Part shown: one piece after another, positions 38,244-61,730 of the stretch | Layout: every line of letters starts with the position of its first letter | How positions within the stretch are numbered: position 1 is the stretch's first letter | Source of the DNA: Henckelia pumila | Lineage: Eukaryota > Streptophyta > Magnoliopsida > Lamiales > Gesneriaceae | Length of the DNA stretch: 64,000 bases | NCBI RefSeq assembly: GCF_033568475.1 | Contig: NW_027331831.1 | Location: 7,192,001 to 7,256,000 of the forward strand | Direction of reading: 5' to 3' | Translations under genes and position numbers: made by a program | The notes under the pieces: model-generated | What the model saw: only the letters and a program-made list of their open reading frames with translations | What the model was told of the DNA's origin: nothing | The model's database searches: none

Positions 38244-38835
38244 GATGCGATTATCATAAAAAAAAATATTCCCGGATGGTGGGTAGGAACCCGGGCAATG
38301 AACCAGCAAGCTTCCTCGTCTCCTTGAAGATGATGTCTACGCACTAGAAAACAAGAAAACTGGTAAGTGGGGAGCCGAAAGGGTTTTCGGCGTCGCCACT
38401 CCGATGCTTAAGTCAGACTAAGATATATGTAGTGGGCATAGGAATCTTGAGAAAATGAGTGTGTGTAAATATGGAAGTGTTTTTCTAAGATAATAATGAA
38501 CATACCTCCCCTAAGCCCGGAGCCCGGTATATATATATATAGCCGGCCAACTGGGTCACTCAATGATTACACAACATGGGCTTGATTGATAATCATTAAA
38601 TGTGACGGGAAAACTTTAAATATGACTAGATATTTTCCATAGTTTATGGGGAAGTCAATGTTGTTACAACGTGGTTACTGACTTTCTTTTCCGTAAGAAA
38701 ATTCGACACACGTAAAGTAGATGTGGACTCTTCTCAGGCTCCGAAAATATAAAGCCCGGGTCCTGTTGCCAAGCCGATCTATCTTATCTTTCCCGTCCTC
38801 GGGCTTCTCCCACCGACCCGGGCTATCAGACAAAC
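38244..38835. mobile_element. Left part of an older repeat (probable LTR) interrupted by the Ty3 element
   Basis: GC-richer than the spacers, with CCCGGG words, a TA-rich TATA-like run at 38527-38542 (TATATATATATATA) and LTR-like composition. It stops at the CAAAC target site (38831-38835) and appears to continue at 49568 after the Ty3 insertion. No clean TG...CA ends or TSD could be found, so its identity as an old LTR is an inference. Confidence 0.35.
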
Positions 38836-41767
38836 TATAGCACCAAGAACTTCTAAAATTTGAAAATCATGCCTAAAATTATTTTCAGTATTTATATTTT
38901 AAATTTCTTGAAGTTAATTGTTTAAGTTTCAGTTAAAGTTAGCCTTGCTTGACTTATTTGAATTAAATGCCTTGAACTGTTTAGTTAGTAATTTTTATCC
39001 AGGCAGGCGACGACGGTGGGCTTCGGTGGTTTATTTTCAAGATTTTTAATTTTAAGATTTTAAGTTAGAGGTAAAAGGGGGGTTTTGGCCAAAAATGTAA
39101 ATTTTGAACTTTTAGGGGTCAAAAAGCAATTTTATCATTTTCTTGGGTTATTTCCTAAATTTTCCATAAAATAGGATTTTATTAAATCCGGGTTAGTGGA
39201 ATTTCAATCAAAATGTTGTGAGTTGAAATTTTAAATTTAGAAGTTTGAAAATAGCAAAAAGTTTGAGGTAAAAAGTTTTAATAGTACAAGTAGTACTTTT
39301 GCTAGTACAAGTAAAATTTTAAAACACTACACACAATACACTACACTTTTAATTTACACTATCATTAAAACATTTCAATTAAAAAATCAAGACACAAACC
39401 CTAACTCCCAAACCCTAGCCCTAGCCGCCCACTTCTCCCCTCTCCCTTGAAGAAGCCGTCCAACCACTCCAGCCGCCGCCCCGCCGCCGCCTGCCGCCGT
39501 CCCAGCCACCGGAGAAGCTCCCCTAGGTGCTTAGCTTGGTGTTTGGTTGAAGTTCCACTCTCATCTCCTCTTCTTGTTCGAAATTTGTTGGTAGATTGGT
39601 GAAGGCAAGTGTAACTATTTCTTTGGGCTAACATTCAAGCAATATCTACCCCCACCCTTAAGACTTCTTGCAATAATTTCGAAAATGCATGATGTTGTGA
39701 TGTTAGGGTTTCGAATTTGGGCATTTAAGGGGCTGATTTTGCTAAATGTGTTATGGGGTTGAGTTTATGTGATTTAATGTTGAGTATATGTGCAATGACA
39801 TGGATTTATATGGATGTTCTTGCCAAAATTCGAATTTTCAGAATGTATAAGGACCTAAATTTCGAAATTTTGCATGTGTAGGGGCTGAAATTTAATTGAT
39901 GTTGAAGTATTTAATGGTCTTGCATTGATCTTGATTGATTGTTCAACATTTTGGAGTTTTGATGGTTAATTCTTGATGTTCTTGATATGTGTTGTGAAAG
40001 TGTGGATTGAGTGTAGCCCAAGTGTTTGGGAAAAGTCCTAAGAGAGGTTATTTGAGGTGTTTGGGTGTTTGGTGTGGAGATAAGTTGAGGAAAGTGGGCT
40101 AAGTGTTTGAATTGTTGGAATTGGAGGTGTGTGAGTGTGCAGGGCAGCACTGTTCACGGGGCAGGGCAGGGTCGTGGCTGAGGTCTGGGCAGGGTTAGGC
40201 TATTCCATGGTAAAGTTCATGACGTTGTGGTCGCGTCGATATAAAATGGGCTCGATTCGGATAAGAATTGAGTGAGTTATGGATTTTTCAAAATTGGGTG
40301 CAAGTGCAGATTTTTCCTTTGAATAGGGGCTGTCCGATTTTTGTGTTTTGTAAATTTGCTTTTTTGATCTTTTGATGATACCACCTATTCCTTGGGATGA
40401 TTTGGAGAGTTTGTTGAGTGTCGGTTCAAGCGGGACGGGTTTTGGATAATGCATGACAAAGTTAAGGGCTTTTCGGTTTACTTGCTCGAGTTAAGTCAAG
40501 TTTGAGGATTTTGTTGGGTAAGTTGTCTTCTTTGGACTTAGGGGCAGCCACTCATCCACCTTAAACTCACATTTTCGAGTCGAGTCTCATGTCTTAAAGA
40601 TTGCTTATTCGTGTGCATTTGACGTGTTTTTGAGTTTAATAAAGAAAAAGGAAGTTTACTTGTTTGCATGCCATTTAATGTATGAGTTGAGTCTTTATAA
40701 ATGAAAAGGGAAAAGAAAGCAAATATTTTTGAATGAAGTGATCTGTTTGTGACAAGAGGGGTGTTGCTAGGCCGGGGGATGCCTCGGTCTACTCACCAAG
40801 AGGTTATAGAGGTTAGGCAAGGAGCAAGAGACATCTTGTTTACCCTTGCCACAGAGGGGCAATGTGGGATCGGGAGGCATCTCGGTCTCCTTGCCATAGA
40901 GGGGTTAAGTTCGTCGGGAGAAATCTCGTCGTCTTGCCGGCATAGTGCACTGCAGCCATGATCATGATCGAAACAGAGGGTCACAAATCAGGGATCGGAT
41001 TTCTAAGAGGAAAAAGTAAAGAAAAGTTTAAAAGTTAAAGTTTCACAATTTTAGTTGACTCGTTTTGCATTGATGTCAGTCTTTCAGTTATGCATGAGTC
41101 TAAGTTGAATGTTATGAAAGTTAAAGTTTATCATAGTGTGAGTTCATTAATGCATGATTTCTATATCTTTCTAGTTTCATGCATATTACAGTTTAAGTTG
41201 AGTTTTTGCATCACGTATTTTAAACCCTTGTTATTATCCTAGTTATGCTTGTTGAGTCTTTAGACTCACTATGCTTGAATGTTTGCAGGTGAGGATTTTG
41301 TGGAGGAGACGGAGGGGCGTGATCTACTGGGATGAGGCCATCGGTAGTGCAAGGCCCAGTGACCGTTGCTTCCTTTTAGTTTATGTTTTTCCGCACAGTT
41401 ATCGAATTTGTAATAATGAAGTATTATTTGAGATCTTGTAGTATTTATAGCCAGGATGTGCATTCCCTGTGCTACAGCTTATGTTTTGAAGTACGTTTTC
41501 CGCTTTTGCAAGTTTATGATTATCGTTGGAATTAATTTTAAATGCTTTAGTTTACTTTATGCTGTAACCGGGAGGTGGTTACTAGGATTGCATGTTTATG
41601 TTTAACGCACTTAAGTTTTGAAGTCAATTTTCTTTCCTTATTTAAATTGCTGTTTGAGTCTTGATGGCTTATTTGTTTTACAAATAGGTCATGGCAAAAT
41701 TTTTAAAAATCCGTAATTTTCCTTTATTTTAATTATAGTCTAGTAGCGAGTAGTTAGGGTCGTTTCA
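38836..41767 (+). repeat. 5' LTR of Ty3 element 1
   Basis: It begins TATAGCACC where the 3' LTR begins TGTAGCACC, so the canonical TG has mutated to TA. It ends GGTCGTTTCA. It contains a tandem set of CGGGAGGCATCTCGG-like modules at about 40771-40938 and a possible promoter-like TTTATAAAT near 40694. Short reading frames inside it are repeated in the 3' LTR and have no conserved product. Confidence 0.9.
40771..40938 (+). repeat. Tandem degenerate modules in LTR of Ty3 element 1
   Basis: Related words recur at 40771 (CCGGGGGATGCCTCGGTC), about 40827 (GAGACATCTTG), 40870 (TCGGGAGGCATCTCGGTCTC) and 40912 (GTCGGGAGAAATCTCGTC), each followed by an ACTCACCA/CTTGCCA-type tail and usually AGAGGGG. 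GGGAG...CTC arms can pair locally. The same block is present in the 3' LTR at 48571-48738. Confidence 0.6.
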
Positions 41768-41768
41768 G

Positions 41769-41783
41769 TTAGTATCAGAGCAC
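41769..41783 (+). promoter_or_regulatory. Primer-binding site (initiator Met tRNA type)
   Basis: TTAGTATCAGAGCAC directly follows the 5' LTR and matches the TGGTATCAGAGC core complementary to the 3' end of initiator methionine tRNA, with a substitution near the start. It marks the minus-strand priming site. Confidence 0.8.
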
Positions 41784-41985
41784 GGTCTTGGTTTGGGCTG
41801 AGCCTACTGCCGATTGCTGAAACTCAGGGGATCTCGCCTCAAAGTCTGTAAGATTTAAATTTAATGTCTCTATCTGTTTAAGTTTTGATGTATTAGTTTC
41901 TTGAGTTATTGAAAAGTTTAAATTTGAAGTAAAAATATTTTCTATGGCATGAAATTTGAATGTTGGATTTTCTCAATGCGTTTAG

Positions 41986-43035
41986 ATGGCTCGTCGTCAT
42001 GATCCGCGTGCAGTTACGCCTCCACCGCCTCCACCGGCGCCGCAGGTGGATATAGGAGGGCAGGTGCTAGCAGGATTGGCCCGTATCCTCGAGCGTCATG
42101 TGGATGCTCCTGTTGCTAGATCGGAGACTACTTATGAGCAGTTTCGGAAGATGAACCCGAAGGACTTCGCTGGCACCACTGATCCGTTGATAGCGGAGGG
42201 TTGGATCCGCTCCCTTGAGGTGATCTTTCGCTATATGCAGATGGGAGATCCAGATAGAGTGAGATGTGCTGTGTTTCTCCTCCAGGATGATGCCGCCCTC
42301 TGGTGGGAGGGTATGGAGAAGATTGTGAACCCAGCTACTCTACCTTGGGCTGAGTTCAAGAAGTTGTTCTTTGAGAAGTACTTTACTGCTGATGTGAGAG
42401 CCCGTTTGAAGACGGAGTTTATGAGCTTGAGGCAGGGTGATCTGTCGGTAGCCCAGTTCGTGGTGAAGTTTGAGAGAGGCTGCCATTTCGTGCCGTTGAT
42501 TGGAGATGATGAGAAAGAGAAGCTGGAGCACTTTCTTGTAGGGCTTCGACCTACCATCCGTAGGGATGTGCTGATGGCTGAGCCATCTGATTATGCTTCA
42601 GCACTGAGGCGTGCCTTGAGGTCCGAGCAGACGCTGAGAGATATTAGCGTGGAGGCGCATGGCAAGAGGCCCTTCCCTCATCAGGGCCACTCTCAGCAGC
42701 AGCAGCACGGCAAGAAGCCGTATCATGGGCCCCCGAGACAGCAGGGACAGCAGGCACCGCAGGGGCGTCAGGCCCAGAGACAGGTTCCTCCCAAGGCTGG
42801 GGAGAAGCCTATTTGTCAGTTTTGCCATCGTCCGCATTTTGGGAAGTGTTTGAAGGATGCTGGAGTTTGCTTCAAGTGCAAGAAGCCAGGACATATGTCT
42901 ACCCATTGTCCAGAGCTGAGGAGGCCCGTGCAGGGCAGAGTGTTCGTGATGGAGGCCGAGCAGGCCGACCCAGACACTACTCTTCTCACAGGTAATATCT
43001 TAACTTTTGGGTTAGAGCAGTTAAAGATTTGTTGA
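41986..43035 (+). CDS. gag: Gag of Ty3 element 1
   Basis: A 349-aa frame. A proline-rich N-terminus is followed by the capsid-like retrotransposon gag domain (FAGTTDPLIAEGWIRSLE, WWEGMEK), a Gln/His/Gly-rich basic linker, then a CX2CX4HX4C zinc knuckle (CFKCKKPGHMSTHC) preceded by a second Cys/His motif (CQFCHRPHFGKC). Conserved Gag ends near residue 335 (DTTLLTG). The last 14 codons to TGA lie inside the putative intron at 42992-43218. Role: assembly of virus-like particles and binding of the element RNA. The frame itself is intact. Confidence 0.9.
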   Translation: MARRHDPRAVTPPPPPPAPQVDIGGQVLAGLARILERHVDAPVARSETTYEQFRKMNPKDFAGTTDPLIAEGWIRSLEVIFRYMQMGDPDRVRCAVFLLQDDAALWWEGMEKIVNPATLPWAEFKKLFFEKYFTADVRARLKTEFMSLRQGDLSVAQFVVKFERGCHFVPLIGDDEKEKLEHFLVGLRPTIRRDVLMAEPSDYASALRRALRSEQTLRDISVEAHGKRPFPHQGHSQQQQHGKKPYHGPPRQQGQQAPQGRQAQRQVPPKAGEKPICQFCHRPHFGKCLKDAGVCFKCKKPGHMSTHCPELRRPVQGRVFVMEAEQADPDTTLLTGNILTFGLEQLKIC

Positions 43036-43218
43036 TGCATGCGACTCTAAATCTTTGCTTGTTTGAGGTTTTACTCTAGTAACTTGTTGCATGCCTTAGG
43101 ACCTTTGACTGTTTAGCATGAATAGTATCTTGTTTGGGAATTGTTGAATTAGAATGAGCCTAAGTAGAACTCGTGGTTTTAACTTCAACCTTTCGTCGTT
43201 GTAACTACTGCTATGCAG
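42992..43218 (+). other. Putative spliceosomal intron between gag and protease
   Basis: The segment starts GTAATA after ACAG and ends CTATGCAG before GTAGGATT. It is 227 bp long and T-rich, unlike the GC-richer coding flanks. Joining the flanks changes frame and aligns Gag directly with the start of protease at the point where the other Ty3 element in the window (near 60693) is continuous. Unspliced RNA meets the gag TGA at 43033-43035. Splicing itself is inferred from sequence. Confidence 0.65.
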
Positions 43219-46200
43219 GTAGGATTGTTGTGGCAGGCGTAGCCACGAGGGCCTTATTAGACTCAGGGGCTACCCATTCCTTTATATCGGAGTCTTTTGC
43301 CCTTGAGAGGGGCATTCAGAGCGAGGAATTGGAGGTTGGATTCTCAGTTACTATCCCCTCAGGGGAAGAGCTATCCACCAGGAGCTTGGTGAGAGACCTT
43401 GTATTGCTTTTGCAGGGTCAGTCAGTGGTAGCAGACCTCATAGTGCTACCTTTGCCAGAGTTTGACCTGATTCTTGGGATGGATTGGATGACGAAGAATG
43501 CGGTGATGATAGATTTTCAGCAGAGGTCAGTACTAGTCAGGCCTGAGGGCGAGGAACCGTTTTGGTTTGAGGCTGCTAAGAGCTTGAGGAAGACTCGAGT
43601 CATTTCTACTTTGCAAGCTCAGAGGCTTGTACTTAGTGGGTGCGAGTCATTTCTAGCCAGTTTATCTTTGACAGAGCTGCCAGAGCGACCAGTTATTTCT
43701 GATGTGGGTATCGTCAGGGAGTTTGAGGATGTGTTCCCTAGCGATGTTGTGGGAATTCCGCCCGATAGAGAAGTGGAGTTCTCTATAGATTTGATTCTCG
43801 GTACTGTGCCTATCTCCAAGGCACCGTACAGATTGGCTCCTACCGAAATGAAGGAGTTAAAAGAGCAGATTCAATAGTTGCTTGACAAGGGATTCATTCG
43901 CCCTAGTTTCTCCCCATGGGGCGCACCAGTTCTCTTCGTTAAGAAGAAGGACGGTAGTCTAAGATTGTGCATAGACTACCGAGGTTTGAACGGAGTGACT
44001 GTGAAGAACAAGTACCCATTACCTAGGATCGAGGACCTCTTCGATCAATTGCAAGGTGCATCCGTCTTTTCGAAGATTGATCTTCGTTCAGGTTATCACC
44101 AGTTGAAGGTGAAGGAGTCAGATGTGGCGAAGACAGCTTTTAGGACTCGTTACGGTCATTACGAGTTCCTTGTGATGCCGTTTGGGATGACGAATGCGCC
44201 CGCGGTTTTCATGGATCTTATGAACCGCGTGTTTCAGCCTTACTTGGACCGCTTTGTCATTGTTTTCATCGATGACATCCTCATTTATTCGAAGGATAGA
44301 GTGGAGCATGAACAGCATTTGAGGACCGTTCTTGAGGTCCTTCGAGAGCACAAGTTGTTGGCCAAGTTTGATAAGTGTGAATTCTGGTTGGAGAAAGTTG
44401 CTTTCTTGGGTCATATTATTTCTAAGAGCGGTGTGGAAGTAGACCCTTCAAAGATTCAAGCAGTGAAGGAGTGGTCTATACCGAGGAGCGCGTCTGAGAT
44501 TCGCAGTTTTCTTGGATTAGCCGGTTATTACCGAAAATTTATCAAGGGTTTTTCCTCCATTGCTGTGCCTATGACAGCGTTGACTAAGAAGAACGCCAAG
44601 TTTGTTTGGGGTGCCGAGTGTCAAAGGAGCTTTGATACTTTGAAGGAAGCTCTTACGACAGCGCCAGTGTTGACCATGCCATCCGGGCAAGGTGATTTTG
44701 TGGTGTATACTGATGCTTCCAAGTTGGGATTGGGAGCAGTTCTGATGCAGCGAGACAGAGTTATTGCCTATGCTTCTAGGCAATTGAAGGAGCACGAGAA
44801 GAACTACCCTACTCATGACTTAGAGTTGGCAGCGGTAGTGTTTGCTCTTAAGATTTGGAGACACTATCTTTACGGAGAGAAGAGTCAGATCTTCACAGAC
44901 CACAAAAGCCTCAAGTACTTCTTCACCCAGAAGGAATTGAATATGAGGCAGCGTAGGTGGTTAGAGTTGGTGAAGGACTATGACTGCAATATTAGCTACC
45001 ACCCTGGTAAAGCTAATGTGGTTGCAGATGCTTTGAGCAGGAAGACTGCAGTGATTACCTCCTTGTCAGTGTCTAGACCGTTGCAGGTTGAGATTCAGAG
45101 GTATGGTCTTGAGTTTTATGCGAGTGGTAGAGCTCCCCGTTTGTCTTCCCTTAGTGTGCAGACTACACTTTTTGATCGTATCCGTGCAGCGCAGTCAGTT
45201 GATGAGCAGATCAGGAAGTGGAGACAGAGAGATGAGGAGAAAGGCAGCGGTTTGTATGCTGTGGTAGATGGGATTGTGAGGTACAGAGGTAGATTTTGGG
45301 TTCCCGCAGGTGATTCTCTGCAAGTTACTATCATGGCAGAGGCACATACATCGCCGTACTCAATCCACCCTGGTAGTACGAAGATGTATCGGGATCTTTA
45401 GCAGCTTTATTGGTGGCCAGGCATGAAAAGTGACATTGCCCGATTCGTGTCAGAATGCCTGACATGCCAGCAGGTTAAGGCGGAGCATCAGAGACCCGCC
45501 GGTTTGCTTAAGCCTCTCCCTATTCCGGAGTGGAAGTGGGAGAATATCTCCATGGATTTTGTCGTGGGATTGCCGAAGACATTGAGAGGTTCGAATGCCA
45601 TTTGGGTGATTGTAGACCGTCTCACTAAGTCGGCTCACTTTTTACCGGTGAAGATGAATTTCACGATGACTCAGTTCGCGGAGTTGTATATCCGGGAGAT
45701 AGTCAGACTACATGGTATTCCAGTCTCCATAGTGTCTGATAGAGATCCACGGTTTACTTCGTCTTTTTGGAAGAGTCTTCATTCTGCTATGGGTACGAAG
45801 CTACTTTTTAGCACCGCCTTTCACCCGCAGACTGATGGCCAGTCAGAGAGGGTGATTCAGATTTTGGAGGATCTTTTGAGGGCATGTGCTATTGATTTTC
45901 AAGGTAGTTGGGAGTCGAGACTACCACTAGTGGAATTCGCGTATAATAACAGTTTTCAGTCCACTATTGGCATGGCTCCCTACGAGGCACTATATGGGAG
46001 GAAGTGTAGATCTCCAGTGTTGTGGGATGAGATAGGTGAGAGATCAGACTTTGGTCCGGAGATTGTTCAGTTGACCACCGAGGTAGTGGCTAAGATCCGT
46101 GATAGGATGAGGACTGCCCAGAGTAGGCAGAAGAGCTATGCTGATCACCGGAGGAGAGACTTGGAGTTCTCGGTGGGTGATCATGTTTTTATCCGTATTG

Positions 46201-46598
46201 CACCCATGAAGGGTGTGATGAGGTTTGGAAAGAAAGGGAAGTTGGCACCGAGGTTCATAGGGCCCTTCGAGATTTTGGATAGGGTAGGGGTACTGGCTTA
46301 TAGAGTGGCCTTGCCGCCTAACCTTGATAAGATCCATATTGTATTCCATGTGTCGATGTTGAGGAAGTACATCTCGAACCCATCCCATGTGCTTAGTTCG
46401 GAACCGCTTCAGCTATCTCCTCACTTGACCTATGAGGAGAAGCCCATCCGGATTTTGGATAGACAGGAGAGAAGACTCCGTAACAAGTCGATTCCAATGA
46501 TCAAGGTGAGATGGCAGAACCATTCGGATGAAGAGGCCACTTGGGAAGCAGAAACAGATATCAGAGTTCGATATCCGAAGCTTTTTGGTAAGTTTTAA
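43219..46598 (+). pseudogene. pol: Pol of Ty3 element 1 (PR-RT-RNase H-IN-chromo-like), with two nonsense codons
   Basis: One frame throughout, broken by TAG at 43875-43877 and 45399-45401. Order: aspartic protease with LLDSGATHSF; a linker; reverse transcriptase with FIDD (44265-44276) and PFGMTNAP; RNase H with YTDAS and TDHKSL; integrase with its zinc-binding cysteines (CLTCQQVK) and DDE core (SDRDPRF, then HPQTDGQSE); and a C-terminal chromodomain-like segment (IKVRWQNH...EEATWE) ending at TAA (46596-46598). The first stop lies between PR and RT, the second just before the integrase core. The remaining frame is undamaged, which suggests recent inactivation or mobilisation in trans. Confidence 0.9.
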
Positions 46599-46635
46599 TT
46601 TCGAGGACGAAATTTCTTATTAGGGAGGGAGGAAT
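46597..46635 (+). promoter_or_regulatory. Pre-PPT inverted repeat and polypurine tract
   Basis: AATTTCG-AGGA-CGAAATT (46597-46614) forms a 7-bp stem with a four-base loop and overlaps the pol stop codon. The purine tract AGGGAGGGAGGAA (about 46622-46634) then abuts the 3' LTR and should prime plus-strand synthesis. Element 2 has the same stem-loop at the matching place. Confidence 0.75.
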
Positions 46636-49567
46636 TGTAGCACCAAGAACTTCTAAAATTTGAAAATCATGCCTAAAATTATTTTCAGTATTTATATTTT
46701 AAATTTCTTGAAGTTAATTGTTTAAGTTTCAGTTAAAGTTAGCCTTGCTTGACTTATTTGAATTAAATGTCTTGAACTGTTTAGTTAGTAATTTTTATCC
46801 AGGCAGGCGACGACGGTGGGCTTCGGTGGTTTATTTTCAAGATTTTTAATTTTAAGATTTTAGATTAGAGGTAAAAGGGGGGTTTTGGCCAAAAATGCAA
46901 ATTTTGAACTTTTAGGGGTCAAAAAGCAATTTTATCATTTTCTTGGGTTATTTTCTAAATTTTCCATAAAATAGGATTTTATTAAATCCGGGTTAGTGGA
47001 ATTTCAATCAAAATGTTGTGAGTTGAAATTTTAAATTTAGAAGTTTGAAAATAGCAAAAAGTTTGAGGTAAAAAGTTTTAATAGTACAAGTAGTACTTTT
47101 GCTAGTACAAGTAAAATTTTAAAACACTACACACAATACACTACACTTTTAATTTACACTATCATTAAAACATTTCAATTAAAAAATCAAGACACAAACC
47201 CTAACTCCCAAACCCTAGCCCTAGCCGCCCACTTCTCCCCTCTCCCTTGAAGAAGCCGTCCAACCCCTCCAGCCGCCACCCCGCCGCCGCTTGCCGCCAT
47301 CCCAGCCACCGGAGAAGCTCCCCTAGGTGCTTAGCTTGGTGTTTGGTTGAAGTTCCACTCTCATCTCCTCTTCTTGTTCGAAATTTGTTGGTAGATTGGT
47401 GAAGGCAAGTGTAACTATTTCTTTGGGCTAACATTCAAGCAATATCTACCCCCACCCTTAAGACTTCTTGCAATAATTTCGAAAATGCATGATGTTGTGA
47501 TGTTAGGGTTTCGAATTTGGGCATTTAAGGGGCTGATTTTGCTAAATGTGTTATGGGGTTGAGTTTATGTGATTTAATGTTGAGTATATGTGCAATGACA
47601 TGGATTTATATGGATGTTCTTGCCAAAATTCGAATTTTCAGAATGTATAAGGACCTAAATTTCGAAATTTTGCATGTGTAGGGGCTGAAATTTAATTGAT
47701 GTTGAAGTATTTAATGGTCTTGCATTGATCTTGATTGATTGTTCAACATTTTGGAGTTTTGATGGTTAATTCTTGATGTTCTTGATATGTGTTGTGAAAG
47801 TGTGGATTGAGTGTAGCCCAAGTGTTTGGGAAAAGTCCTAAGAGAGGTTATTTGAGGTGTTTGGGTGTTTGGTGTGGAGATAAGTTGAGGAAAGTGGGCT
47901 AAGTGTTTGAATTGTTGGAATTGGAGGTGTGTGAGTGTGCAGGGCAGCACTGTTCACGGGGCAGGGCAGGGTCGTGGCTGAGGTCTGGGCAGGGTTAGGC
48001 TATTCCATGGTAAAGTTCATGACGTTGTGGTCGCGTCGATATAAAATGGGCTCGATTCGGATAAGAATTGAGTGAGTTATGGATTTTTCAAAATTGGGTG
48101 CAAGTGCAGATTTTTCCTTTGAATAGGGGCTGTCCGATTTTTGTGTTTTGTAAATTTGCTTTTTTGATCTTTTGATGATACCACCTATTCCTTGGGATGA
48201 TTTGGAGAGTTTGTTGAGTGTCGGTTCAAGCGGGACGGGTTTTGGATAAGGCATGACAAAGTTAAGGGCTTTTCGGTTTACTTGCTCGAGTTAAGTCAAG
48301 TTTGAGGATTTTGTTGGGTAAGTTGTCTTCTTTGGACTTAGGGGCAGCCACTCATCCACCTTAAACTCACATTTTCGAGTCGAGTCTCATGTCTTAAAGA
48401 TTGCTTATTCGTGTGCATTTGACGTGTTTTTGAGTTTAATAAAGAAAAAGGAAGTTTACTTGTTTGCATGCCATTTAATGTATGAGTTGAGTCTTTATAA
48501 ATGAAAAGGGAAAAGAAAGCAAATATTTTTGAATGAAGTGATCTGTTTGTGACAAGAGGGGTGTTGCTAGGCCGGGGGATGCCTCGGTCTACTCACCAAG
48601 AGGTTATAGAGGTTAGGCAAGGAGCAAGAGACATCTTGTTTACCCTTGCCACAGAGGGGCAATGTGGGATCGGGAGGCATCTCGGTCTCCTTGCCATAGA
48701 GGGGTTAAGTTCGTCGGGAGAAATCTCGTCGTCTTGCCGGCATAGTGCACTGCAGCCATGATCATGATCGAAACAGAGGGTCACAAATCAGGGATCGGAT
48801 TTCTAAGAGGAAAAAGTAAAGAAAAGTTTAAAAGTTAAAGTTTCACAATTTTAGTTGACTCGTTTTGCATTGATGTCAGTCTTTCAGTTATGCATGAGTC
48901 TAAGTTGAATGTTATGAAAGTTAAAGTTTATCATAGTGTGAGTTCATTAATGCATGATTTCTATATCTTTCTAGTTTCATGCATATTACAGTTTAAGTTG
49001 AGTTTTTGCATCACGTATTTTAAACTCTTGTTATTATCCTAGTTATGCTTGTTGAGTCTTTAGACTCACTATGCTTGAATGTTTGCAGGTGAGGATTTTG
49101 TGGAGAAGACGGAGGGGCGTGATCTACTGGGATGAGGCCATCGGTAGTGCAAGGCCCAGTGACCGTTGCTTCCTTTTAGTTTATGTTTTTCCGCACAGTT
49201 ATCGAATTTGTAATAATGAAGTATTATTTGAGATCTTGTAGTATTTATAGCCAGGATGTGCATTCCCTGTGCTACAGCTTATGTTTTGAAGTACGTTTTC
49301 CGCTTTTGCAAGTTTATGATTATCGTTGGAATTAATTTTAAATGCTTTAGTTTACTTTATGCTGTAACCGGGAGGTGGTTACTAGGATTGCATGTTTATG
49401 TTTAACGCACTTAAGTTTTGAAGTCAATTTTCTTTCCTTATTTAAATTGCTGTTTGAGTCTTGATGGCTTATTTGTTTTACAAATAGGTCATGACAAAAT
49501 TTTTAAAAATCCGTAATTTTCCTTTATTTTAATTATAGTCTAGTAGCGAGTAGTTAGGGTCGTTTCA
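46636..49567 (+). repeat. 3' LTR of Ty3 element 1
   Basis: It keeps the canonical TGTAGCACC start and ends GGTCGTTTCA, directly followed by the CAAAC duplication. It is the same length as the 5' LTR and collinear throughout. Confidence 0.92.
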
Positions 49568-49572
49568 CAAAC

Positions 49573-54785: not shown

Positions 54786-54900
54786 AAATTTTGTCTTAAA
54801 GAAAAAGAGTTAAACTCTTGGCTCGTTGTTTTGATCGTGTGGATTATTGATTGGTTGCAAGTGGTGGAAATTGTCCTTACAAGTTTAAGACAAAATTTTG
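54786..54900 (+). repeat. Inverted repeat just before copia gag
   Basis: CAAATTTTGTCTTAAA (from about 54786) is the reverse complement of TTTAAGACAAAATTTTG (about 54884-54900) apart from one extra base, with a loop of roughly 80 nt. It ends five bases before the gag ATG. Confidence 0.7.
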
Positions 54901-54904
54901 TTTC

Positions 54905-55877
54905 ATGGCTACTGATCCATCTGCCAGTGTTACGCCCCCACCATCGCCCCCTGTTACGCCACCACCACATGTTATGTCGCCTGTTATACCGACAGTTGTC
55001 ACGGCCCCTGCTGCTTCTAATGCACATGCCGAGAGACCTGAGAAGTTCTCCGGTTCTGACTTCAAGACATGGCAGCATAAGATGTTGTTTTACCTCACAA
55101 CACTTCATCTTGCGAGGTTTTTGAAGGAAGTTGTTGCTGTTCCGGCACCGGATGCTGACACACAAGCAAGGTCTGCTTTCGATGCATGGTGTCACAGCGA
55201 CTTCTTGTGCCGAAACTACATACTGAATGGGTTGGACAATACGCTGTATAGTGTATATTCTGCAACCAAGACTGCTAAGGAATTGTGGGAATCCTTAGAG
55301 AAAAAGTACAAAACAGAGGATGCTGGCATGAAGAAGTTCGTAGTCGGTAAGTTTCTCGAGTTCAAAATGGTTGATGCCAAGACGGTGATTAGCCAAGTGC
55401 GAGAGTTCCAAATCATCCTCCATGATATAATGGCTGAACGGATGATGATCAGCGAGTCCTTCCAAGTGGCTGCATTAATCAAGAAACTGCCACCTTTATG
55501 GAAGGAGTTCAAGAATTACTTGAAGCACAAACGCAAGGAAATGGGGTTCGAGGACTTGATCGTTAGGCTGCGAATTGAGGAAGACAATCGCAAAGCGGAG
55601 ATCAAAGCTGGTAAGATGCCAATGGAAGCAAAGGCAAACTTGGTAGAGCCGAACGCCATGAAGAAAAGGAAGAAGTTTGGGAAAGATGTAATGCAAGGGA
55701 TAAGAAGTGGAAAGGAACCTGTTGGAACTGTGGGAAGTCGAACCATAAAGCCAAGGATTGTCGCTTACCTAAGAAGGACAATCAAAGTCAAGTAAATGTT
55801 GTCCAACACAAATCTGTGCCTATTGACTTGTCTGAGATAGATCTGTCAGCAGTAGTCTTCGAGGCTAACATGGTTGA
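54905..55877 (+). pseudogene. gag: Copia gag, frameshifted before the zinc knuckle
   Basis: From ATG at 54905 the frame encodes a Pro-rich start, then the copia-type gag (UBN2-like) domain: ERPEKFSGSDFKTWQHKM, then AKELWESLEKKYKTEDAG and a basic linker. At about 55660-55690 the reading frame must change for the zinc knuckle CWNCGKSNHKAKDC (CX2CX4HX4C, from 55720), which is in another frame; the original frame stops at 55793-55795. The frame after the knuckle stays open to the Ty3 insertion. Role in intact elements: particle assembly and RNA binding. Confidence 0.85.
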
Positions 55878-57314: not shown

Positions 57315-60300
57315 TCAAAACAACTCAGGATGGTCTTCACGCATCCTGTCCTCAAGCTCCCAAGTAGCTTCCTCAGTGCCTCGGCGCTGCCACTGAACTA
57401 AAACCAAAGGAATGACTTTGTTCCGTAAAACCTTATCCTTATAATCCAGGATACGAATAGGTTTCTCAACATAGGTCAAATTCTTATTCACCTGAACCTC
57501 AGACCGCTGCAGAATATGAGATTCATCCGCCACATACCGTCACAACAGAGATACGTGGAACACGTCGTGAATACTGGATAGATGCGGTAGCAAAGCTAGT
57601 CGATAAGCCAAATCGCCAATGCTCTCCAAGATCTCAAACGGACCGATAAACCTGGGAGACAACTTGCCCTTAAGGCCAAATCTGAGAATCTTGCGGAAAG
57701 GTGACACTCTCAGAAACACTTTCTCCCCGACATCGAACTGCAAAGGCCTACGCTTGATATTAGCATAGCTGGCCTGACGATCCTGTGCAGTCTTAATCCG
57801 TTTCTTGATCTGATCAACAATGCCTATCGCCTGCTGGATAAACTCCGGTCCCTCAGCCTGTCTCTCCCCCACTTCTTCTCAGAAGAGTGGAGTACGACAA
57901 CGTCGCCCGTACAACGCCTCAAAAGGTGTCATCCCAATACTAGTATGATAGTTGTTGTTGTACGCGAACTCGATCAACGGCAAATGATCCTACCAGGCTG
58001 AACCAAAATCCATGACGCACGCTCTAAGCATATCCTCCAAAGTACGGATAGTGCGCTCTGACTGACCATCAGTCTTCGGATGATAGGCAGTACTCAAACT
58101 GAGAGTAGTACCCATCGCACGCTGAACACTCCCCCAGAATCTAGAAGTGAACCTGGGGTCCCGATCGCTGACAATGCTCACAGGCACTCCATGAAGTTGA
58201 ACGATCTCCTGAATGTACAACCGAGCCATACGATCCACATTGTACTCTTGGCTATAGGCAATGAAATGCGCTGACTTGGTGAGTCGGTCCACCACAACCC
58301 AGATAGCATCACAGTTCCTCGGGGATACCGGCAAATGGGTCACAAAGTCCATTGTGATAAACTCCCATTTCCATTCAGGAATAGGCAAACTGTGAAGCAA
58401 TCCTCCAGGTCGTCGGTGCTCTGCCTTGACCTGTTGACACACCAAACATCTCGAAACAAACTGATAAACACTGCGTTTCATTCCTTTCCACCAAAAACGA
58501 GTACGTAGATCCTTGTGCATCTTGTTGCTCCCAAGATGAATACTCAACTTAGTGCGATGTATCTGAGACAAAATCTCATCTCGCAACTCTTCATCCTGCG
58601 GAATCACAAGCCTACCAGACAAACACAGAAAGCCATCTGACTGATAATGAAATCCAGATGAGCTACCCTCGTTAGCTAGACGAGCTAAACACTGGGTCTT
58701 TGGATCAGACATCTGAGCATCTCGGATTGGCGAATACAAGGCTGGCTCAGATAATATCGCAAACATCTGGATACTCTGCATACCTTTCTTATGCTTGAAG
58801 GTATAACCTGAAGTACAACAGTCACCGATCGCACTAGACATCGAACAATTCTGAAGTGCGGATAGTCGCACCTTGCGACTCAAAGCATCAGCGGTGAGAT
58901 TAGCAGCTCCCGGATGGTACTTAATTTCGCAATCATAGTCCTTAAGCAAGTCCATCCAACGTCTCTGCCTCATGTTCAACTCCGCCTGAGTGAACAAATA
59001 TTTGAGACTCTTATGGTCGGTAAAGATCTCAAATTTCTCGCCATACAGATAATGACGCCAAATCTTCAAAGCGAACACAATGACTGCTAACTCCAAATCG
59101 TGGACTGGATAGTTGTCCTCGTGAAGCTTTAGCTGTCTAGAAGCGTATGCGATCACATGCCCATTCTGAGTCAGAACACAACCTAACCCTTGAAGAGAAG
59201 CATCAGTGTATACCACATACCCTCCAGATCCTGACGGTAATGCCAACACCGGCGCAGAAGTCAACCGCCGTCGAAGCTCACAGAAATTCTCCTCACACTC
59301 GGAGGACCACTCGAAAACCACACCCTTGCGGGTAAGCTGCGTTAACGGTCGAGCTAACTGAGAGAAGTTCAGAATGAAGCGACGATAATACCCTGCTAGA
59401 CCCAGAATACTACGGATCTCAGCAATTGTCGTCGGACGCGACCAATTAAGTACCGCTTCAATCTTGCTTGGATCAACAGAAATCCCCTCCCTGGATATGA
59501 TATGGCCAAGAAAGACCACTCTATCCATCCAGAACTCACACTTGCTCAGCTTGGCGTACAACTGCTCATCCCGAAGAGTCTGCAGTACCAACCACAAGTG
59601 AGAAACATGCTCTTCCGTATTACGCAAATACACCAAGATGTCGTCAATGAAGACCACGACAAACTTGTCCAAATACTCCCTGAAGACACGGTTCATCAGA
59701 TCCATGAATATAGCCGGCGCATTAGTCAAACCAAATGGCATCACTAGGAACTTGTAATGCCCATAGAGAGTACGGAATGCAGTCTTGGCTACGTCCTGAT
59801 CACGGACTCTCAACTGATGATACCCAGATCTCAAGTCAATCTTGGAGTAAACTGACATGCCCTGCAGCTGATCAAACAAGTCATCAATACGAGACAACGG
59901 ATACTTGTTCTTCACAGTGACTCGATTCAGCTGCCGATAGTCAATGCACAGCCGCATCGACCCATTCTTTTTCTTTACAAAAAGAACAGGAGCTCCCCAA
60001 GGAGATACACTAGGACGAATGTACCCCTTGTCCAAAAGATCCTGTAGTTGATTCTTCAACTCACGCATCTCTGACGGAGCCAGACGATACGATGCTCTAG
60101 AAATAGGCGAAGTACCCGGCATCAACTCTATGCCAAACTCGACTTCCCTAGCAGGAGGAAAACCCGGAATCTCATCAGGAAATACATCTGGAAATTCATC
60201 CACAATAGGAATGCTCTCTATCCCAATGCTCTCAGCGAACAAATCAACTGCATAGATAAGGTAACCTTCCCCGCCAGACTCTAGAGCTCGACAGACTCTC

Positions 60301-60749
60301 AAAGCTGATACTAAAGACATCGGCGGTCGCGCTCCCTCACCATAGAAAAACCAGCTCTCACTCCCCTCCGGATGAAAGCGTACTAATCTCTGATAGCAGT
60401 CTAATGAAGCTCGATAGGTAGTCAACATATCTATTCCCAGAATGCAATCAAAGTCCTCCATTGCCAGGACCATGAGATTCGTTAACAGAATGTTCCCTTC
60501 GAACTCTAAAGGGCAACCCATCACTAGACGCTTAGCCAAAGCAGATTGGCCCGTCGAAGTAGAAACAGACATCACTACGTCTAGTGCAATGCATGGTAAC
60601 TTATGCCTCTTAACAAAACGTGCAGAAATGAAAGAATGAGATGCACCAGTGTCAATAAGTACAAGAGCAGGTATACCATAAAGCAGAAATGTACCTGCGA
60701 TGACTTTCTCATTCTCCTCCACTGCCTGATCATGTCTCAGGGCAAACAC
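57315..60749 (-). pseudogene. pol: Pol of Ty3 element 2 (PR-RT-RNase H-IN-chromo-like), broken by nonsense codons
   Basis: A 919-codon stretch reads protease ([10 protein letters not shown]), reverse transcriptase ([12 protein letters not shown]), RNase H (YTDAS, TDHKSL) and integrase ([24 protein letters not shown]). TAG at 57990-57992 then interrupts it. The same frame continues with further stops TGA at 57879-57881 and 57540-57542, and ends in the chromodomain-like tail (LVQWQRRG...EEATWE). The stops look like CAG-to-TAG and TGG- or CGA-to-TGA changes, that is C/G-to-T/A transitions as left by 5-methylcytosine deamination. Protease is continuous with the preceding Gag-end sequence near 60693, with no intron-like segment. 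Confidence 0.9.
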
Positions 60750-61730
60750 CTGGCCAGAAGCTCATGGCCTCAAATGAGAACTCCCAGCAGACTGTCCCTG
60801 CGACCTCTGCTGTACGGTGGCCTGAGAACCAGATCCTGAACCAGATCCAGAACCGTCTCCCCAGATAGTAGACAATCTCTCCGGATATGACCAGTCTCTC
60901 CACAACGGAAACAAGCTCCAGAAGCTCTACGGCACTTGTCGGATGGATGGTTCTTCCCACAGTGATCACACTTGTCCTTCTTACCAAAACGGACAACACC
61001 TCCAGAACCAGAGGAAGAAGTAGATCCAGACTTCTTGAAAGATTGGGCACGGGGACCCAAAGAACTAGCAGGCCTCGACTGAGGGAAAGACCTGTTCCGC
61101 CGAAAGCTGTCCTCCACCTGGTGACAACGGCTCACCAAACCTTCATAGGACATGTCATCGTCAACCGCCACACGGTCATGGATCTCAGGGTTAAGGCCCT
61201 GAAGGAACAGATTATACTTCATCTCTGAGCTATCAGCAATCTCGGGGCAATAGGATAGCAGATCAAAGAACCTCTACTGATACTCATTGATAGACATGGC
61301 TCCCTATCGCAGACTCAGTAGCTCGCGCTGCCTTCGACTGACGGAGTGAAGGAGGAAAATACCGCTTTTGGAAAGCTGTGCGGAACTCGGCCCAGGTGGC
61401 CACTCCTCTCGCCGCAACAAAAGGTGCAGAAGTAAACCTCCACCATCTGCGCGCACGTCCATCCAGAAGATAGCCAAGGGTCTCCATCTTCTGCTCCTCG
61501 GTGTAGTGGAAAGTCTGAAAAGTCGTCTCCATGCGGTCTAACCAGTTCTCCGCATCCTCCGGAGACTCACCTCCAACTAAGGGCTTAGGACCCATAGCTA
61601 AGAATCGACGCACAGTGAAACGCTCGTCGTCATGATGACGATGACGCCGTTCTCGACGAGGCTCCCGGTCGGCATCACCCCAACGCCCACCAATACTACC
61701 ATGAGAACTCCGGTCGTCACGATTTGTCAT
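60750..61730 (-). pseudogene. gag: Gag of Ty3 element 2, frameshifted
   Basis: ATG at 61730 opens a charged N-terminus (His/Arg/Asp-rich), then the gag domain (ESPEDAENWLDRMETTF, ARRWW). Near 61290-61340 the conserved frame shifts, and two TAG codons follow in the new frame. The later part has a basic Ser/Arg linker and the zinc knuckle CFRCGETGHIRRDC, preceded by CDHCGKNHPSDKC. A second frame change close to 60770 returns to the pol frame. The protein would bind element RNA and form particles, but this copy cannot make it whole. Confidence 0.85.

Follow-up and report, generated by a model that had tools for sequence, protein, structure and literature searches.

A 227-bp segment lying between gag and the protease region of a young Ty3 retrotransposon of Henckelia pumila (positions 42992-43218 of the window, the whole stretch of 64,000 nucleotides analysed) is very probably a spliceosomal intron, to judge from its sequence and from that of its relatives. 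Its borders, its conservation, its independence of reading frame and its recurrent exact loss can be read directly from the DNA. We consider it highly likely that an intron at this Gag/protease boundary acts through the share of RNA that is spliced, which would set the Gag to Gag-Pol ratio. Unspliced full-length RNA would yield Gag with a short tail, ending at a stop inside the intron, and would also be the genome; removal of the intron would give the mRNA for the Gag-Pol polyprotein. Spliced RNA containing the leader and the primer binding site would occasionally be reverse transcribed, giving rise to intron-less copies. We infer splicing in RNA, its partial character and its control of the protein ratio from the features that are laid out below.

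The segment is part of a chromodomain-bearing Ty3 retrotransposon, element 1, which occupies 38836-49567 and has the duplication CAAAC on either side. Its features are the following:

38831-38835, plus strand: 5' target-site duplication CAAAC, with the matching five bases at 49568-49572
38836-41767, plus strand: 5' LTR, from self-alignment, its outer end set by eye
41770-41781, plus strand: primer binding site, TAGTATCAGAGC
41986-42991, plus strand: gag exon encoding capsid and CCHC knuckle; 335 codons and one further base
42992-43218, plus strand: putative 227-bp GT-AG intron in phase 1, recognised from its borders, stops, sister copies and intron-less copies
42992-43035, plus strand: Gag read-through tail expected on intron retention, 14 residues and TGA, the first codon starting in exon 1
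43149-43171, plus strand: conserved block inside the putative intron, TTAGAATGAGCCTAAGTAGAACT, with homologous places in L061-L078
43219-46598, plus strand: pro-pol exon with protease, RT, RNase H, integrase region and chromodomain, from Pfam, the integrase region being assigned by eye
46636-49567, plus strand: 3' LTR, from self-alignment

The two LTRs, the target-site duplication, the primer binding site, the Ty3-type capsid and the order protease-RT-RNase H are those of a Ty3/gypsy LTR retrotransposon, and the C-terminal chromodomain is that of a chromovirus. Pfam matches were obtained in 41986-43032 (Retrotrans_gag 3.7e-15, Ty3_capsid 6.5e-10, zf-CCHC 3.4e-4), in 43173-43874 (protease RVP_2 9.1e-29), in 43878-45398 (RVT_1 3.1e-37, RT_RNaseH 1.7e-35) and in 45423-46595 (Chromo 1.6e-6, 28.4 bits against a cut-off of 25.1). 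RNase H is matched by two overlapping models, with one stretch each in 43878-45398; in the piece 45423-46595, Pfam gave no integrase-core match at E 1e-3 and no second RNase H. The primer binding site is presumably of the tRNA-Met type, and our guess from this, the long LTR and the chromodomain is that element 1 belongs to the Tekay/Del clade. Its LTRs are 99.556% identical (self-alignment of 38838-41767 with 46638-49567; 2930 bp, 13 mismatches), which, at LTR substitution rates of 0.7-1.3e-8 per site per year, corresponds to an age of roughly 0.2-0.3 million years. The first-pass annotation had described a young Ty3 element; the LTR identity and the Ty3 domains bear this out, but element 1 is not intact, because its pol is interrupted by in-frame TAG codons at 43875-43877 and 45399-45401.

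The borders proposed for the segment are exact. Exon 1 ends in CACAG at 42991, the segment runs from GTAATA at 42992 to CTATGCAG at 43218, and exon 2 begins with GTAGG at 43219. Counted from the ATG at 41986, exon 1 has 1006 nt and hence ends in phase 1, so that the first two bases of exon 2 finish a Gly codon; from there the protease frame is open up to 43874. Positions 1-22 of the RVP_2 profile are unmatched in the exon-2 piece, as would be expected if the protease domain starts in exon 1. It had also been predicted that retention of the segment would extend Gag by 14 residues before a stop and that the segment is rich in T, and both hold: the tail would read GNILTFGLEQLKIC, followed by TGA at 43033-43035, and the T content is 0.39, higher than that of gag (0.23) or of the protease exon (0.28). 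The segment contains stops in each of the three frames, seven of them in the gag frame. Between 43152 and 43171, identity among three family consensuses is 0.90-1.00, against 0.57-0.81 at the third codon positions of exon 2, and the block at 43149-43171 may be a splicing signal, a packaging signal or something else.

This arrangement is no local accident, because the segment is covered by all 40 scored matches to 42900-43300 in the 884.7-Mb assembly (each spanning at least 399 of the 401 bases at a listed 100%; these are the best 40 of 592 first-look candidates and thus a lower bound), and because an exact 23-mer spanning the donor occurs at no fewer than 195 places in the genome (100 on one strand and 95 on the other; none for the reversed control). 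Twenty further copies were fetched by means of this 23-mer from outside the 40 scored matches, the donor being fixed by that choice, and in all of them the segment is present and its acceptor ends in AG. In the 19 that could be aligned (the gag flank of L044 was unalignable, and this copy was left out of the alignment and of the tree described below), the segment is 227 bp (eight copies), 228 bp (eight), 225, 229 or 230 bp (one each) long; one single-base insertion is common to 8 of the 19, and in all 19 the protease reading past the acceptor opens with RIVV. The length of the segment is thus free with respect to frame, and a mechanism needing a fixed frame relation does not fit these sequences. 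An in-frame 'exitron' was considered and rejected: open-frame values of 1534/1544 hinted at open 228-bp copies, and six of these, read directly, have 7 stops each. As an observation apart, some copies are spaced by about 7.8 kb (C4:28320626/28328437/28336235; C3:8149240/8157057/8164874; C2:110979507/110987366), a spacing that equals one LTR and one internal region taken together and so points to tandem arrays with common LTRs.

The segment extends beyond the immediate family. GT and AG ends were found in all of 18 further stretches that carry it, 12 of them from diverged families. The diverged copies were found by a search with P0008, a gene model whose Gag is 63% identical to that of element 1, their gag and protease matches being set apart at the same residue, and were split into two families by eye on the alignment. 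The segment is present in 12/12 stretches chosen from these two groups (L067-L078), is 232-237 bp long, starts with GTAAYAT in every case, ends with ATGCAG in ten copies, ATTCAG in one and ATGTAG in one, and contains 5-13 gag-frame stops. Not all of these copies are undamaged, since the last exon base before GT is altered in L072, L073 and L076. On this alignment, the segment is homologous across families. The first-pass annotation had named sister copies with a frame open across the segment as evidence against an intron; every intron-bearing copy translated (15 copies; 19 rows, L001 being the window itself) has at least five gag-frame stops. Its expectation that every intact copy would have the segment with GT-AG ends is borne out by the 20 donor-fetched copies as to the acceptor and by the 18 further stretches as to both ends, but does not hold when taken strictly, as some intron-less copies are little decayed. 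Taken together, GT-AG ends, coding flanks that are in frame without the segment, internal stops and free length are what a spliceosomal intron displays.

Processed copies, which had been proposed as a check, do exist. A probe for the exon-exon junction located 12 places in the genome (9 by an exact match and 3 by a match with one mismatch, as against 1 place for the reversed control), and two more copies without the segment, L079 and L080, are nearest to the diverged families. It should be noted that the donor count, with no mismatch, and the junction count, with up to 2, give no fair ratio. The loss is exact at the GT-AG borders in all 12 copies, in which TLLT or TLIT is followed by a gag frame that runs into RIVVAG (RIFVAG once). 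Five of the 12 have at least 330 open gag codons and a pol that is free of stops over the 503 codons fetched, so loss of the intron joins the frames in nature. The leader and the primer binding site, which templates need, are kept in 11 of the 12, where the site reads TGGTATCAGAG, and are degraded in L056; this fits the proposed origin of these copies.

On a tree of 42 rows, built after removal of the segment columns (L079 and L080 were placed in another tree), the intron-less state needs 10 changes, of which strongly supported branches alone force 5. Shuffled labels need a mean of 10.7 changes, with 196 of the 500 shuffles needing no more than 10, so that the intron-less copies are scattered like independent events. 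The groups that they form are small at most (L049/L058 and L054/L060). Support for the tree is modest: 26 of 39 inner branches are open, and in 22 rows fewer than half of the columns are filled. The intron-less state could also be spread by template switching. The intermixing of intron-less with intron-bearing copies fits occasional reverse transcription of spliced RNA. The model predicts that fused intron-less copies would make no free Gag by themselves, and their repeated origin yet seeming rarity is consistent with this prediction. The argument from rarity is tempered by the fact that some of these copies are young and that proteins can act in trans, and a reading of them as dead ends may be weakened by the five that are little decayed.

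Gene models offer a further line of evidence. P0008 joins TG to RIVVAG, and its likely locus, L068 (a 99% match, with the unusual residues of the model on both sides), carries a 232-bp segment between the joined residues; at least one NCBI gene model therefore uses exactly this intron. The same TG/RI join is seen at the protein level in P0002 and P0004, of the element 1 family, in P0003, P0005, P0009, P0024 and P0026, and in P0037 from Primulina and P0092 from Zingiber, but a join at the protein level alone fits a spliced gene and an intron-less copy alike. P0002 and P0004 were dropped as evidence for splicing, as no fetched copy matches them exactly and they may come from intron-less copies. 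P0021 and P0035, which end in TG plus a few residues, look like retained introns to judge by the protein, as does P0022, whose end is changed. NCBI may have built its gene models from homology and not from reads. It can be added that the ginger Zingiber officinale, a monocot, has Gag relatives (P0012, P0015 and P0017) that are 54-59% identical over 93-97% of the query, which is close for so distant a host, and that the TG/RI join recurs in its models P0092 and P0143.

Gene model P0001, a cluster of 3 sequences, points to two additional features:

41491-41985, plus strand: possible leader intron, donor GAA/GTACGT, acceptor GCGTTTAG/ATG
49089-49135, plus strand: possible alternative 3' exon in the LTR, TTGCAG/GTGAGG, tail EDFVEKTEGRDLLG and stop

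P0001 opens with residues encoded at 41416-41490, which are followed directly by the gag ATG. It consists of this leader exon, gag and an LTR tail, the gag donor being joined in phase to an acceptor in the 3' LTR. The leader donor is present in 8 of 8 long copies, and the context of the leader acceptor in the same 8 and in all 12 intron-less copies. If real, the leader intron would remove the primer binding site. According to a passage of PMC1142308 (2005), which bears on this possible intron, introns upstream of gag were then unreported. The short open frame at 41416-41490 in the 5' LTR (MKYYLRSC...), which P0001 fuses to the start of Gag, is probably only part of the leader exon.

These features raise an addition to the preferred reading rather than a strict rival to it, namely that the same donor is also spliced to the acceptor in the 3' LTR, which would skip pol and give a short Gag-only mRNA, with the leader intron removing the primer binding site. 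We regard this as a serious though somewhat doubtful possibility. The tail of P0001 is the one encoded by the LTR (EDFVEETEGRDLLG in both the 5' LTR and P0001), acidic Gag tails of like type end 9 of the 86 tabulated models, from Henckelia and Primulina (P0001, P0028, P0029, P0033, P0038, P0039, P0042, P0060 and P0102; the 86 are those among 157 listed proteins that show the motif before the junction), and the combination of acceptor and acidic-tail motif is limited to the two LTRs of element 1 in the window and 200 kb of sampled genome. There are precedents in other elements, EVD (PMC8892269) and BARE (PMC3735527). However, the tail was placed in an LTR here for P0001 only, a gene predictor can invent such joins, and TG followed by E may equally be a retained GTGAG donor. 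A wider and more tentative scheme, which we think rather unlikely as a whole, is a three-way switch in a chromovirus lineage. One donor at the end of gag would have three outcomes: the genome and Gag when no splicing occurs, Gag-Pol by use of the near acceptor and, by use of the 3' LTR acceptor, a short Gag mRNA ending in LTR-encoded residues. The leader intron, by removing the primer binding site, would then keep most spliced RNA from reverse transcription, and intron-less copies would recur and rarely multiply; if this were true, these copies, making only the fusion, would be natural loss-of-ratio mutants.

The main rival to splicing followed by reverse transcription is loss of the segment by deletion, in DNA or during reverse transcription, between short repeats; Gag-Pol would then come from fused copies only, or arise by another route. 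The same six bases, CAGGTA, stand at both ends of the segment, and for any single copy a deletion between them therefore gives a product identical to that of splicing. A comparison of 19 copies along about 3 kb shows no deletion of at least 20 bp except that of the segment, in the 12 intron-less ones; these 12 were selected by the probe, so the absence of other deletions bears on specificity and not on rate. The same ~3 kb holds 141 direct-repeat pairs of 6-11 bases at a spacing of 150-300 bp, including that of the segment, and not one of the 46 that are longer than 6 bases has been lost in any of the 19 long copies. Control deletion probes for 8-base pairs spaced by 228 and 225 bp found 3 places and 0 places, respectively, as against 12 scattered losses of the segment. 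The 3 places, with 2 mismatches each, proved to be genuine deletions that had occurred at an 8-base repeat, in diverged copies of 72-78% identity, and perhaps represent one event. Repeat-mediated deletion thus exists but, on these comparisons, is no easy explanation for the loss of a single 6-base pair in 12 scattered copies; nor does it account for the conservation of the GT-AG ends, for a length that is free of frame or for a protease frame that is open. We consider it quite improbable; splicing and then reverse transcription appears to be the simpler account.

It is more improbable still that the segment is a decayed insertion without function, such as a small transposon with a 6-bp duplication, and that the intron-less copies represent the older empty site. 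CAGGTA at both ends would suit this explanation, as would the more distant elements in the genome that have no segment, one of which is in the window:

57990-61222, minus strand: element 2, a distant relative without a segment at its gag/protease boundary

Element 2 had been put forward as reading straight through the equivalent boundary, which it does, although its own frame is broken slightly upstream. This break (60560-61000, minus strand) lies between the zinc knuckle and the protease and is unrelated to the intron. Twenty 10-kb stretches taken at even steps from C1 and C2 contained, as to relatives, only distant elements with gag 23-29% identical, and four of these sampled elements (L009, L011, L012 and L021) align across the boundary in one piece, with no segment; no relatives were found in the viral contigs searched. 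Against a decayed insertion stand the presence of the segment in diverged families, the position of the intron-less copies among intron-bearing ones, and the finding that, in 2 of 8 intron-bearing copies, gag is open and so is pol as far as it was fetched. An ancestral insertion may nevertheless have later become the intron. Lastly, although recoding is usual in many LTR elements and the Gag and Pol frames differ in 227-bp copies, a programmed frameshift or stop read-through across the segment is hardly credible as the source of Gag-Pol, because the 227-bp and 228-bp forms are each present in multiple copies despite their difference in frame, and it would have to pass the seven gag-frame stops of element 1 or the 5-13 of the 12 diverged copies.

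The proposed intron of element 1 has partial counterparts in known systems. Foamy viruses make Pol from a spliced mRNA, separately from Gag, unlike the Gag-Pol fusion expected here. In general, according to a part of a December 2025 review (PMC12786077), plant LTR retrotransposons lack introns, Ogre and EVADE being among the notable exceptions, and the sections of Neumann et al. 2019 (PMC6317226) drawn on here describe most element groups as having a single ORF. The same sections describe the region between the Ogre ORFs GAG-PROT and RT, with a mean length of 274 bp, as an intron shown experimentally in pea and Medicago; the segment studied here measures 225-237 bp. As in Ogre (Ty3/gypsy, Tat lineage), and with the same polarity, retention or splicing would decide between a short and a full polyprotein. 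However, the Ogre intron lies between gag-pro and RT, whereas here the segment precedes the protease, in an element that has a chromodomain and no additional RNase H. Those sections make no mention of intron-less Ogre copies.

The likeness to the Ty1/copia elements EVD/Copia93 and BARE is that splicing sets Gag over Pol from one element, as reported in PMC8892269, PMC12786077 and PMC3735527, and Gag-only splicing in copia elements is described in PMC8892269 and PMC3735527. In EVD and BARE, however, the spliced RNA is the Gag mRNA, and the polarity would be reversed here for the near acceptor, which does not give a Gag-only RNA of the shGAG type; should the 3' LTR acceptor prove genuine, a possibility to which the gene models point, it would be similar to EVD. 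Bianca (Ty1/copia) has two ORFs about 172 bp apart on average, and a special expression strategy was suggested for it (PMC6317226, in part); it is like element 1 in its short spacer and unlike it in its copia domain order, and what was drawn on of section 13 of that paper states no splicing of Bianca. Spliced copia transcripts are reported from sunflower in part of PMC7730604, with no Tekay named there among the expressed elements. Searches of open-access literature turned up no report of an intron between Gag and protease, most subscription papers lying outside their scope. In the window itself, an ORF at 54851-55795 (plus strand) resembles a Ty1/copia Gag by eye.

The source of the excess of Gag over Pol in plant Ty3 elements is poorly known, and here a large young family has an apparent intron at precisely the Gag/protease boundary. 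Genome annotation may call such elements frameshifted when they are not. The exact losses of the segment, which have occurred several times over, constitute a natural experiment within one genome, by which the need for a Gag to Gag-Pol ratio becomes testable through counts of descendants.
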